Below, piece after piece: positions 19,205-39,724 of a stretch of DNA of 41,453 bases. The first letter of the stretch is position 1. Every line of letters starts with the position of its first letter. The position numbers and the translations under genes were made by a program. The DNA is from Clostridiales bacterium. Its GTDB lineage: Bacteria; Bacillota; Clostridia; Saccharofermentanales; Saccharofermentanaceae. The DNA lies in contig JAFZPJ010000008.1 in assembly GCA_017550385.1 (NCBI GenBank), forward strand, positions 1-41,453. Reading direction: 5' to 3'. Below the pieces are notes generated by a model. It saw only the letters and a program-made list of their open reading frames with translations. It searched no databases and had not been told where the DNA came from.

Positions 19205-19233
19205 TATATAATTCATCATTAACAAATTGTCAA
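19205..19233 (-). promoter_or_regulatory. Consensus promoter of topA-trmFO operon
   Basis: On the minus strand TTGACA (19233-19228), a 17-bp spacer and TATATA (19210-19205). The -35 overlaps the last codons of dprA (stop at 19219-19221). AT-rich alternating TA steps (19201-19210) may make it supercoiling-sensitive, which would suit topA autoregulation; that point is inference. Confidence 0.82.
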
Positions 19234-20460
19234 AGAAAACTTTCCGCACTGATCAGTGATCCATCCCTCAAGCTTCATATCAACAAGCAGCTGCGATATC
19301 CGGTAGAACGGGAGAGCCAGCGCCCTGCACAATTCATCAATGTTTTTGGGGCCTGAAGACAGTTCGTCACTTATGAGCAGCTTCCATTGCGCGTCACCCA
19401 CCTCTTCAGGAAACATCTCCGCTTGCTTGCGCAGATCATCGATATCCGCCTTTGCTTTCTGCTCAAAAGCCTCTTTTTCGCTAATTGATTCATACAGACC
19501 TTCAAAGAAATACGGATCCCCTATCCTTTTGAAGATCTGAGCCTGTGATATGCTGTCTATAACGCTGTCCGGCGATATCAGGACGTTCCCGCCGTCTTCA
19601 AGCAGCTTCATCCCGCCTTTGGCATTCTCAAAATAGATACTGTTCGGGAGTACGAATACTTCCTTTCCCTGAGCAGCCGTAAACGATGCGGTATGCAGCG
19701 TCCCTGACACCTCTCCCGCCTCCATGATGAGCGTGCAGTCTCCCAGGCCCGCTATAAGGCGGTTTCTGGCAGGGAAATACTGTTTCAGGACATTCTGTCC
19801 GGGCGGCATCTCCGAGATAACAAGGCCATCACATACTATCTGCTCATAGATATCTCTGTTCTCGCGCGGGTAGATCCGTTCAGGACCGCCGGGAACTACG
19901 GCCACGGTGCTGCCTTTATGCCTTACAGCTGCAGAATGCGCCGCCCTGTCAACTCCCGATGCCATTCCCGATACGACGACTATTCCCTTGTTGCTCAATT
20001 CAGTAGCAAAACTCTCAGTCGCGAACAGCGCATACTTGCTCGCCTCCCTTGAACCGACTATAGCCACGGCACCATTAAGCACCAGGTTCCTGAGGATCTC
20101 TTTCCTGCCTCTGCAATAGATCACTTTGGGCATACCGCTCAGACCGCGCCAGTTATACGGGTAAAACTCGCTGTCAAGGACGGATATGACGAATATATTG
20201 TTCTTCTTCGCTATCTCACGGTATTCATCAGCTGTCTTAAGGACCAGATCCCAGCTGTTTATCACTCCGTCCAGCTTCCTGCACGTACTCTCACTTAATT
20301 CAAACCTGTCCATCTCTTTGATGCGGTCAAGATCCGCAAGTTCCCTGTAGTTTTTTATCTTATGAAGGTTCTCGAGTTCATTTATGGCCTTGAAGTCCAG
20401 CTTCGTTACCATCCTTATCGCCGAATACCTGTAATCCGATGCATAGTCTTTTATAAACAT
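19219..20460 (-). CDS. dprA: DNA processing protein DprA
   Basis: A 413-residue DprA/Smf protein that loads RecA on incoming single-stranded DNA during transformation. The Rossmann domain is clear: IVGSREASKYAL, VVSGMASGVDRAAH, STVAVVPGGPERIYPRENRDI, GLVISEMPPG, YFPARNRLIAGL and GEVSGTLHTASFTAAQGKEVFVLPN in order. A C-terminal winged-helix segment (about 335-413) has the DprA-type DELCRALALP helix. The ATG at 20460 is preceded by AGGTGG at good spacing; a GTG four codons upstream (20472) overlaps the comM stop and is less likely. Downstream of comM in one operon, so it would share the comM promoter. Confidence 0.95.
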   Translation of the reverse strand: MFIKDYASDYRYSAIRMVTKLDFKAINELENLHKIKNYRELADLDRIKEMDRFELSESTCRKLDGVINSWDLVLKTADEYREIAKKNNIFVISVLDSEFYPYNWRGLSGMPKVIYCRGRKEILRNLVLNGAVAIVGSREASKYALFATESFATELSNKGIVVVSGMASGVDRAAHSAAVRHKGSTVAVVPGGPERIYPRENRDIYEQIVCDGLVISEMPPGQNVLKQYFPARNRLIAGLGDCTLIMEAGEVSGTLHTASFTAAQGKEVFVLPNSIYFENAKGGMKLLEDGGNVLISPDSVIDSISQAQIFKRIGDPYFFEGLYESISEKEAFEQKAKADIDDLRKQAEMFPEEVGDAQWKLLISDELSSGPKNIDELCRALALPFYRISQLLVDMKLEGWITDQCGKFSLTIC

Positions 20461-20468
20461 ATCCCACC

Positions 20469-21989
20469 TCACTCAAACAGCTTAGTTCTGTATATTGCCG
20501 CTTCCGATACATCCCTCTCTCCGACATCTTCACGTCCGTCAAGGTCCGCGATCGTCCTTGCCACCCTTAATACGCCGGTAAATCCTCTGGCAGAGAAGAA
20601 ACCCTTCTCCGAGAGTTCCGATGCATATTGAGCAACCTTCTGCGGGATCCTCATTGCCTCAGCCGGATTCTCCGCTCTTACGGTCGCATTGAGCAATCTG
20701 TTCCCGAGTTTCCTGTATCTGTCATGCTGTCTTTCCCAGCATTCTGCTACGGCATTCCTGATCCTGACCGTCTCATCGCTTATGTTGTTCTCACATATCG
20801 ATGCCATATCCGCCCCGGAGATCGAAGTCATCTCACTTACGATGTCTATCCTGTCGAGAAGCGGACCGGACAGCTTGCCCATATATCTTTTACGCGCACC
20901 CGGCGTGCACCTGCACTTCCGCCCCGGCTCCAAGTACAATCCGCACTTACATGGGTTTGCCGTGCCGGCGAAAATAAACCTCGCAGGATACACGAACGTC
21001 TTGCCGCTTTTGGTAAGCCTTATCTCCCTGTCCTCGAGCGGCTGTCTTAAAGCCTCGAGAACCTCCGGCTTGTACTCGCACAGTTCATCCGCGAGGAGCA
21101 CGCCGTGATCTGCAAGAGCAAGTTCTCCCGGCGCAAGATTACTGGAATTGCCCAGAAGGCCGCTTACCGATATCGCGGGGCCTGCGTATCTGCAAGGCCG
21201 AGTATCAGTGGGTTCTGCACCGTCGCCTTCGACGGCTTCAGCGAGTGCATAGACTTCAGGTATTTCTTCCGGGTACAGCGGCGGGATAAGGCCCGTAAGT
21301 ATCCTTCCCGCCATCGTCTTGCCTGACCCCGGACTTCCGACCAGAAGGATATTGTGGAACCCCGCAGCACTTAATATGATCGCGCGTTTGGCTTTCTCCT
21401 GACCTTTGAGAAGCGAGATATCGACCGGATCTTCGCCCTGCGAACCGCAAGCAAATGCAAGTACCCTCTCACAGTATCCTTTCAAGCCGAAGACCGACCT
21501 CGCCTCAGAAAGGCTCGATACCAGCGCCCCGCGATACCCCGCGACAGCAGCGCTCCGTTCTTCCTCCTCCGGTATTATCTTGATATCAAAGCCTTCCTGC
21601 CTCATGCACACGAGCCTCTTAACACACCCCGGAGTCGCCTTGATCTCCCCTTTGAGAGAGAGTTCGCCTTCTGCATACACTCTCTTTCCCGGCGGTTCGG
21701 GAAGCTGGCTGGAAGCAAACAGTATGCCGAGTGCTATCGGCAGATCGAACCCGGAACCCGATTTCTTCATGTATGCCGGGCTGATACTGACCGTAACGTG
21801 GCCCTTCGGCATCTTGAATCCCGAGACAGCCAGAGCCGAATGAAGCCTTCCCTGAGCCTCCCTGATCGAAGAATCACAAAGACCGAGCACAGAGAATGTC
21901 GGAATTCCTGGAGTTACTGAGACTTCTATCTCTGACAGCACCGCACCGGTTCCGTCGTTAAAACATGAATATACTTTTGAAACTTGCAT
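20469..21989 (-). CDS. comM: ComM/YifB-family AAA+ (Mg-chelatase-like) helicase
   Basis: A 506-residue ComM homologue. In naturally transformable bacteria ComM is a hexameric helicase that promotes branch migration during integration. The N-terminal Lon-S16-like domain (1-170) includes GLCDSSIREAQGRLHSAL and SPAYMKKSGSGFDLPIALGIL. Walker A is VGSPGSGKT (217-225), and a Walker B-like VLLADELCEY comes later with RQPLEDRE and a zinc-type CKCGLYLEPGRKCRC region. The ATG at 21989 follows a near-perfect AAGGAGGTGA Shine-Dalgarno. The reading frame extends to 22478 but only as antisense of ychF. Regulated by the repeat-type promoter upstream (22011-22068). Confidence 0.95.
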   Translation of the reverse strand: MQVSKVYSCFNDGTGAVLSEIEVSVTPGIPTFSVLGLCDSSIREAQGRLHSALAVSGFKMPKGHVTVSISPAYMKKSGSGFDLPIALGILFASSQLPEPPGKRVYAEGELSLKGEIKATPGCVKRLVCMRQEGFDIKIIPEEEERSAAVAGYRGALVSSLSEARSVFGLKGYCERVLAFACGSQGEDPVDISLLKGQEKAKRAIILSAAGFHNILLVGSPGSGKTMAGRILTGLIPPLYPEEIPEVYALAEAVEGDGAEPTDTRPCRYAGPAISVSGLLGNSSNLAPGELALADHGVLLADELCEYKPEVLEALRQPLEDREIRLTKSGKTFVYPARFIFAGTANPCKCGLYLEPGRKCRCTPGARKRYMGKLSGPLLDRIDIVSEMTSISGADMASICENNISDETVRIRNAVAECWERQHDRYRKLGNRLLNATVRAENPAEAMRIPQKVAQYASELSEKGFFSARGFTGVLRVARTIADLDGREDVGERDVSEAAIYRTKLFE

Positions 21990-22010: not shown

Positions 22011-22068
22011 AGCATACAGAGAAAAAAGGCCGAAAAACCCGACAAAAACCGACAAAAACCGACAAAAT
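22011..22068 (-). promoter_or_regulatory. Candidate competence promoter upstream of comM-dprA (three 10-bp repeats plus TATGCT)
   Basis: Read on the minus strand: three tandem units ending GTCGG (TTTTTGTCGG, first unit ATTTTGTCGG) at 22068-22039, then GTTTTT (22038-22033), a 16-bp spacer and TATGCT (22016-22011). The 10-bp period would put bound proteins on one face of the helix next to a poor -35, the layout of an activator-dependent promoter. A start near 22004 leaves a short leader with AAGGAGGTGA. The same layout precedes comEA at 39666-39724. No such element is known to me; function is inference. Confidence 0.6.
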
Positions 22069-38954: not shown

Positions 38955-39659
38955 TCAGACCGTGATATATGCTTTTATCTTATCGAACTTGGCGTCTCCT
39001 ATCCCGGAGACGTTCTTTATCTCTTCTATGGCGGCAAACGGCGCCGTCTCCCTGTAATCGATTATAGCCTGCGCATAGACTTCTCCGATCCCCGGAAGCG
39101 ACATAAGCTCATCCTTGCCTGCCGTATTGATGTTGACCAGAGAAGCCGCCTCAGCCTGGCTTCCGGCTCCTTCTCCCCATACATACTCATCATCTTCCCT
39201 GATTATGTCTTCCTGCACCTCGAAAACATCCTCCGACACCGATCCTTCCGCCTGCTCGCAGTCAGGAATGAATACAGATACGTTGGACTCGATCTTATAG
39301 ACCAGATTGATCTTGGTGACATCGGCATTCTCCGTTAATCCCCCGGCGCACTCCACCACATCATTAAGTATCACGCCTTCGGGGAGCTCATATACCCCCG
39401 GCAGGACGACCGCACCGCATATGTATACCTGCACCGTTGCAGGCTCTGAAGCTCCTTCAGTCCAAGATGTCTCACAGGCCGTGTCAGTCTCTTGAGCAGA
39501 CACTTCTGACGGCATGATGATGCTCTCGCCTTTTACCGTCTTGATGAAGGTACCGCCGGTGCCGTTGACCAGCAGCTTATACGCAAGGCTCAAAACCGCG
39601 ATCAGGATAAATGCCGCCGGATATATGAATGTCTTAAGTTTTTCCTTCTTGTTCTTCAT
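38955..39659 (-). CDS. comEA: ComEA-type competence DNA receptor
   Basis: A 234-residue membrane-anchored DNA-binding protein used in natural transformation. Short basic N-terminus (MKNKKEKLK), one transmembrane helix (10-30), an extracellular SLBB domain (about 75-133, VQVYICGAVVLPGVYELPEG), an acidic linker, and a C-terminal helix-hairpin-helix pair (174-234, LVNINTAGKDELMSLPGIG and VSGIGDAKFDKIKAY) that binds double-stranded DNA. The ATG at 39659 has no Shine-Dalgarno; the TTG further upstream (39701) lies inside the promoter repeats. No comEC follows. Transcribed from the repeat-type promoter shared with comM. Confidence 0.95.
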   Translation of the reverse strand: MKNKKEKLKTFIYPAAFILIAVLSLAYKLLVNGTGGTFIKTVKGESIIMPSEVSAQETDTACETSWTEGASEPATVQVYICGAVVLPGVYELPEGVILNDVVECAGGLTENADVTKINLVYKIESNVSVFIPDCEQAEGSVSEDVFEVQEDIIREDDEYVWGEGAGSQAEAASLVNINTAGKDELMSLPGIGEVYAQAIIDYRETAPFAAIEEIKNVSGIGDAKFDKIKAYITV

Positions 39660-39665
39660 GAACAA

Positions 39666-39724
39666 AGCATAGCACGCAAACAGGGGCTGAAAACCCGACA
39701 AATTCCGACAAAAACCGACAAAAA
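39666..39724 (-). promoter_or_regulatory. Candidate competence promoter of comEA (three 10-bp repeats plus TATGCT), leaderless
   Basis: Read on the minus strand: three tandem units TTTTTGTCGG, TTTTTGTCGG, AATTTGTCGG (39724-39695), GTTTTC (39694-39689), 17-bp spacer and TATGCT (39671-39666) with an extended TGC before it, then 6 nt to the ATG. The first unit shares its T-run with the rsfS terminator tail. Same architecture as comM (22011-22068). Activator identity unknown. Confidence 0.6.

Follow-up and report, generated by a model that had tools for sequence, protein, structure and literature searches.

Tandem 0A-type boxes upstream of competence genes, and a receiver-less Spo0A-like protein as their probable activator, in a bacterial order without SpoIVA

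The closest described system to the one reported here is that of Spo0A and its 0A boxes. At abrB the Spo0A boxes stand in tandem at 10-bp steps, and at sigma-A promoters such as spoIIG they adjoin the −35 element; both arrangements recur in the arrays described below. In Bacillus subtilis, Spo0A acts on competence largely through other regulators. To our knowledge, the control of competence in Clostridia is largely open, com genes being widespread there with no established counterpart of ComK or SigX. The accessible part of PMC3485338 names competence among the Spo0A-regulated processes. It also gives the 0A core as TGTCGAA, of which the protein contacts G2, C4 and G5, with an affinity about tenfold lower when these bases are changed, and states that the isolated DNA-binding domain binds without phosphorylation. 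According to a title cited in the accessible part of PMC12090719, activation of spoIIG requires a contact of Spo0A with sigma.

The window considered here is the whole stretch of DNA analysed, 41,453 nucleotides long, which is contig C19 of a 1.85-Mb assembly (61 contigs, 84.6% complete). An initial annotation had proposed that two competence units in it, comM-dprA and comEA, have a common upstream layout. Re-reading of the sequence confirmed this, with the coordinates and spacers as claimed: on the minus strand, each is preceded by three head-to-tail 10-bp units, followed for comM by GTTTTT, a 16-nt spacer and TATGCT, and for comEA by GTTTTC, a 17-nt spacer and TATGCT. The gene identities are likewise upheld by the domain matches given in this list:

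19219..20472, minus strand: dprA (DNA_processg_A, 211.4 bits), downstream of comM on the same strand
20469..21989, minus strand: comM (Mg_chelatase, 208.8 bits), start codon picked by eye after AAGGAGGTG
22011..22016, minus strand: TATGCT, inferred −10 of comM, 23 nt past the last TTGTCG core
22033..22038, minus strand: GTTTTT at the −35 position of comM, 16 nt from the −10, a poor match to TTGACA
22039..22068, minus strand: comM-dprA array of three 0A-like 10-bp units, ATTTTGTCGG at 22059-22068 and TTTTTGTCGG at 22049-22058 and 22039-22048
38955..39659, minus strand: comEA (SLBB, 45 bits; HHH_3, 67.8 bits), start codon picked by eye
39666..39671, minus strand: TATGCT, inferred −10 of comEA, 24 nt past the last core, with the ATG 6 nt further on
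39689..39694, minus strand: GTTTTC at the −35 position of comEA, 17 nt from the −10
39695..39724, minus strand: comEA array of three 0A-like 10-bp units, at 39715-39724, 39705-39714 and 39695-39704 (AATTTGTCGG)

With its ATG so close behind TATGCT, the comEA mRNA is possibly leaderless. A two-unit pattern allowing up to three mismatches has four matches in the window, all within the comM and comEA arrays, and none in 100 dinucleotide shuffles of the window. A slightly looser two-unit pattern (up to three mismatches) gave 18 matches in the whole genome, which make up seven array places plus one stray three-mismatch match; a reversed control pattern gave 4. All seven arrays are upstream of a gene start and are oriented toward that gene:

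Place 1: comM-dprA
Place 2: comEA
Place 3: recA (RecA, 471.5 bits)
Place 4: a row of TadE/G-like pilin genes, so named by position and pattern
Place 5: a 250-aa PD-(D/E)XK-like gene, before recJ (recJ assigned by eye)
Place 6: a 197-aa gene, then a second PD-(D/E)XK-like gene
Place 7: a 27-aa hydrophobic peptide

The names TadE/G, TadZ and PD-(D/E)XK are based on position, pattern and weak profile matches; at E ≤ 0.01, Pfam gave no match for the pilin-like and nuclease-like proteins except for one to PF21111 (38.8 bits, cut-off 27). This match is in a TadE-like protein of the presumably array-controlled pilin row (L019:7297-8292, on contig C2 of the same assembly), which has a C-terminal CDI_toxin_EC869-like restriction-endonuclease-fold domain and is thus a pilin-like protein with a nuclease-like domain. 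The 197-aa protein of place 6 (L022:7465-8058) has no Pfam match, and a gene for a WYL-domain regulator (L022:5145-6335) is found downstream of the nuclease-like gene that follows it. The recA gene has a separate TTGACA-N17-TACAAT promoter and a GAAC-N4-GTTC box, which we take to be a LexA box. No clear array is found at comEC of this genome; what stands there is weakly related, with two units at a 9-bp step (12/18, p=0.11).

A ten-base word repeated beside competence genes could suggest that TTTTTGTCGG is the DNA uptake sequence of a competent bacterium. DNA uptake sequences are found as hundreds of scattered copies. Here, a count of single copies, confined to the 41-kb window, gave 7 of TTTGTCGG, 6 of these being within the two arrays, and arrays occur at seven places in 1.85 Mb, placed at promoters and in a fixed register. 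An uptake sequence is ruled out by these counts, and we give the idea practically no weight. CRISPR repeats and iterons were also ruled out, the arrays being short, intergenic and promoter-placed.

Arrays are also present in relatives, the genomes compared being largely metagenome assemblies. A three-unit pattern (up to three mismatches) matches 19 of 59 genomes, and the reversed pattern none. All 19 belong to the window's genus, represented by 35 genomes (its own included), with no match in the 24 genomes of other genera. Of the other 18 positive genomes, 10 supplied the 60 array sites that were retrieved. The genes behind them are the same set as in the window's genome, together with comEC (PF03772, 100.1 bits), a Tad-type ATPase operon (TadA/CpaF-type ATPase; PF00437, 187.9 bits; TIGR03819, 273.6 bits, under its cut-off) and an HNH-like gene assigned by eye. 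One assembly, G006, has seven perfect arrays.

Upstream three-unit scores of at least 14/18, a threshold chosen after the scores were seen, were found for 14 of 27 comM genes (two genomes counted twice, one further locus unscorable) and 20 of 48 comEC genes (two further loci unscorable), against 1 of 54 control ORFs of the same loci. The single control is ychF of G030, which is divergent from comM and has the intergenic region in common with it. Compared with 200 shuffles, 20 of the 48 comEC upstream regions have p=0.005, which is the floor. Scores are below 14 in 13 of 27 comM and 28 of 48 comEC upstream regions; arrays are absent or weak at comM or comEC in about half of the relatives examined.

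A collection was scanned with WTTGTCG-N3-WTTGTCG-N3-WTTGTCG, and at least 115 stretches were found. Among the scan matches listed, a gene like those of our reference set lies downstream in 40 of 80 loci; of the other 40, a good part are titled as other phyla, and these look like chance or simple repeats. Titles among the matches listed include Saccharofermentans sp., Mageeibacillus sp. and unclassified rumen Clostridia. It is worth adding that Ruminococcus flavefaciens YL228, outside the 59 relatives, has three TTGTCG units in an array upstream of comEA, 24 nt ahead of a TATCCT (L290). This genome has four Spo0A_C matches, one of them in a 125-aa open frame only, and the combination suggests that the link between array, Spo0A and competence may be older and wider.

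The proposal that the element is the operator of a competence regulon, common to separate units, is supported by the further copies at recA, at the pilin-like genes and, in relatives, at comEC and the Tad-type operon. These were the kind of copies that the initial annotation had suggested searching for in the genome and its relatives, and the outcomes that it had named as speaking against its reading did not occur. The element also extends past the uptake genes to nuclease-like genes and tiny membrane peptides, and comEC of the window's genome is without a clear array.

The position of the arrays relative to the promoter provides clues as to their function. Arrays of the window's genome, fetched arrays and listed scan arrays with at least 16/18 core matches were pooled, giving 147 distinct arrays, of which 96 precede a reference-set gene and 51 do not; because this set was partly drawn from genes behind arrays, 96/147 is no independent test. 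The register was taken as the number of nucleotides that separate the last TTGTCG core and the highest-scoring −10 hexamer within 14-45 nt, using our own weights. It is 23/24 nt in 73 of the 96 arrays, 33/34 nt in 11, and elsewhere in 12, so that 84/96 are found in two peaks one DNA turn apart. When the downstream letters were shuffled 300 times, the mean was 5.8 at each register, with maxima of 13 and 15. Fifty arrays before other genes, part of them tiny-peptide genes, were also scored (8 at 23/24 and 3 at 33/34 nt), which shows that this register is not confined to the reference gene set. The −35 position is mostly G(G/T)TTTT- or GTAAAA-like, instead of TTGACA. At recA of the window's genome, where the −35 is a consensus one, the array is in the upstream register, one turn further. 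The recA arrays of three congeners (L127, L134, L142) are in neither register and lie more than 200 nt before recA.

The 10-bp helical phasing and the contact with a poor −35, both proposed from the two sites of the window, are thus borne out by the registers (73/96 and 11/96). An array that abuts the −35 at a fixed helical register (84/96) is placed as for a class II-type activator, and the good −10, the poor −35 and the two registers one turn apart together have the geometry of an activator. Canonical Spo0A both represses and activates, and a last box abutting the −35 could block polymerase, so one could suppose that a Spo0A-like protein binds the arrays and represses the competence genes, to be released by another signal. 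The activation layout argues against this, as does recA of the window's genome, where the array is shifted upstream and does not cover the consensus promoter, and we regard repression as improbable.

Competence genes of Firmicutes are controlled by ComK and ComX/SigX, and sigma factors are not known to read promoters through a triple 10-bp array that can shift by a full turn. Another sigma factor, sigma-H, controls competence genes in Lactobacillus sakei (PMC3364868, in its accessible part). It is very improbable that the arrays are the ComK box, the CIN box of ComX/SigX or the promoter element of another sigma factor. On inspection, their sequence fits neither AAAA-N5-TTTT nor the CIN box, in agreement with the initial annotation.

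The element had been taken for an undescribed type of operator. This view is not supported: the arrays share their core, TGTCG, with the Spo0A (0A) box, and boxes like TTGTCGAA stand in tandem in several sister species. Units in the window's genome read TGTCGG and retain 5 of the 7 core bases of TGTCGAA, the final AA being lost, with GG there. The contacted bases G2, C4 and G5 are retained in 20 of these 21 units; the exception is unit 3 at recA, where G5 is replaced by T. In units 1-3 of the 96 arrays, G2 is invariant, C4 is found in 95, 87 and 94, and G5 in 94, 96 and 92, though this shows little beyond selection, the arrays having been selected by their TGTCG core. The position after the core is G in 78, 72 and 71 of the 96 arrays, and A, T or C otherwise. 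The comM upstream region was inspected in 30 genomes without the strict motif, 26 of which have comM. In several congeners among them, tandem TTGTCGAA-like boxes are found upstream of comM, mostly at 10-bp steps, and a genome of another family has a row as well:

G030, comM boxes: TTGTCGAAA-TTGTCGAAAA-TTGTCGAAAA-TTGTCGAAAA
G001, comM boxes: TTGTCGAAAT-TTGTCGGCAA-TTGTCGTAAA-TTGTCGCAAC
G012, G014, G017 and G019, comM boxes: looser rows, with some units degenerate or steps of 9/11 bp
G042, from another family: 0A-like boxes in a row at comM

The kinship of the boxes directs attention to Spo0A-like proteins. The window's genome has one match to Spo0A_C (PF08769), a 178-aa protein (C55:4173-4706) that we call the orphan. 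It scores 25.2 bits in the genome search (cut-off 25) and 24.6 as a single protein, just under. A profile of 17 orphan proteins matches the Spo0A DNA-binding domains 1lq1 (E 1.5e-15) and 1fc3 (E 2.5e-15); the borderline PF08769 match and the family profile match to PDB 1lq1 together identify a Spo0A_C DNA-binding domain. Two arginines of the recognition helix, R141 and R144, do not vary among the 17 orphans, and E140 is D in two of them; all three residues are invariant when six orphans are aligned with five receiver-bearing canonical-type Spo0A proteins. A full receiver precedes the DNA-binding domain in the canonical proteins of this alignment; in its place, the orphans have a short N-terminal module with an invariant Y..D.R (Y49, D52, R54). 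No receiver domain was recognised in the orphan of the window's genome, where Spo0A_C is the only match at E ≤ 1 and fewer than 90 residues precede it. The protein is therefore Spo0A-like, and not a canonical Spo0A.

Homologues of the orphan are found in 53 of the 59 genomes, and four of the other six have a PF08769 match over the cut-off, giving 57/59. In G006 and G022, neither an orphan homologue nor Spo0A_C was found. At the protein level, ligA was not found in these two genomes, and it adjoins the orphan gene in G000 and G070 (by eye), so we read the absence of the orphan as an assembly gap. DNA of the orphan neighbourhood was not found in these two assemblies either, except that the HU part matches at 65% in G006; this DNA search is weak for the distant G022. 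In a search of 14 named genomes, four had no Spo0A_C match (G063, which is G006, and G064, G065 and G066). One of them, UBA3638 (G064), has an array and no orphan; its ligA is just 36% identical, which suggests that the 3.8-kb contig with the motif may be misbinned. This contig (L218, DFKT01000096.1, from a Lachnospiraceae-named assembly) has an array and a gene close to those of G006.

SpoIVA, the sole sporulation marker used, is found in none of the 59 genomes, with a positive B. subtilis control, and by this single marker the orphan is not a Spo0A that governs sporulation. ComEC is found in 56 of the 59; members of its family are also found in 10 of 14 control genomes, so that ComEC by itself is no proof of competence. 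The genomes so keep com genes and a Spo0A remnant, without the sporulation marker SpoIVA.

If the arrays are a competence operator, they could nevertheless be bound by another regulator, with the Spo0A_C orphan serving something else. The G006 assembly, with the most perfect arrays, is without the orphan; no array was seen by eye before the orphan gene itself; and binding of the orphan to the arrays is predicted from sequence. We nevertheless find another regulator unlikely. Several sister species have tandem 0A-like boxes, the contacted bases are retained in all but one of the units of the window's genome, no Spo0A_C protein besides the orphan was found in that 85% complete genome, in a group where SpoIVA was not found, and G006 is without ligA too.

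We therefore consider it probable, on sequence grounds, that a trimmed Spo0A activates a competence regulon linked to a Tad pilus, through 0A-type arrays at the −35, in this order without SpoIVA. The arrays would be tandem 0A-type boxes that have drifted in this sub-lineage from TTGTCGAA to TTGTCGG. The orphan would bind them as a row of subunits on one face of the DNA, and the last subunit would recruit RNA polymerase from the −35 position, the promoters being of sigma-A type, good in their −10 and poor in their −35; at recA of the window's genome, with its consensus −35, the array would act from one turn further upstream. The set so activated would comprise comM-dprA, comEA, recA and the pilin-like genes and, in relatives, comEC and the Tad-type operon. 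As the protein is receiver-less, it would not be switched by the classical phosphorelay; our guess is that either its level or its N-terminal module controls it.

Some of the genes behind the arrays have further features in common. An ATG with an open frame is found within 12 nt of the −10 for 35 of the 96 arrays, and the gap is exactly 6 nt for 33. This 6-nt gap is found for 10 of 12 comEA, 2 of 2 comEC and 21 of 31 nuclease-like genes, and the mRNAs of these genes are probably leaderless. The nuclease-like genes form a multiplied orphan family with a PD-(D/E)XK-like pattern, S136, E139, D170 and E185 being invariant in 13 sequences. The family is found behind 31 of the 96 arrays, with several paralogues in some genomes, many with their own array. 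Its members include L020:5085-5837 and L022:6304-7119 in the window's genome, and L220, L212, L213, L228, L240, L244, L256, L257, L277, L285 and others. A profile of the family (A2) has weak matches to Bax1 (E 0.00095) and T7 endonuclease I (E 0.036-0.06). Tiny hydrophobic peptides of 27-29 aa are also found behind arrays (L021:5603-5683, L131:660-746 and L242:4093-4176). The L131 peptide matches Hol_Tox (PF16935, 27.5 bits, cut-off 23.3), the L242 peptide has a weak match to Ldr_toxin (17.8 bits, cut-off 27), and the L021 peptide has no domain match over a cut-off. A competence-linked small membrane toxin is possible.

A broader reading, which we favour with less assurance, is that the order has lost sporulation and has kept Spo0A, the master regulator of that process, in a receiver-less form, which directly switches on a complete DNA-uptake programme, so that competence and not the spore is now decided. 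This programme would consist of a Tad-type pilus, ComEA, ComEC, DprA, ComM, RecA, the PD-(D/E)XK-like family and tiny membrane peptides, many of them made from leaderless mRNAs; all of it would be switched on from arrays of at least three 0A-type boxes. If this is true, it reveals the fate of Spo0A after the loss of sporulation. The finding supplies an operator, a candidate regulator and a list of genes, and makes natural transformation directly testable in a group of rumen and gut bacteria, including a strain with a named genome (KHP2).

Among the literature matches listed, no description of such a regulon was found in titles or abstracts, in a search that mostly left out subscription journals. 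In Micrococcus luteus (Actinobacteria), which has a Tad/Flp pilus competence, Tad-type pilus genes are associated with com genes; here, unlike in that system, the joint control is array-based and in Clostridia, with uptake predicted from the genes. In the non-sporulating L. sakei, sigma-H activates competence genes, according to the accessible part of PMC3364868. That system resembles the one proposed here in that a Firmicute that does not sporulate retains a regulator of sporulation initiation and ties it to competence genes, and differs in that the regulator is a sigma factor, not an operator-binding activator, with another DNA element. As in B. subtilis, a Spo0A protein would be tied to genetic competence; unlike in B. 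subtilis, arrays are found directly at comM, comEA and recA and, in relatives, at comEC and pilus genes. Finally, the likeness to Spo0A and the 0A box of Bacillus and Clostridioides is in the homologous DNA-binding domain (1lq1, see above) and the TGTCG core, whereas the present protein has no recognisable receiver, its genomes have no SpoIVA, and its boxes, three or more in a row, have drifted to TTGTCGG and have competence genes as neighbours.
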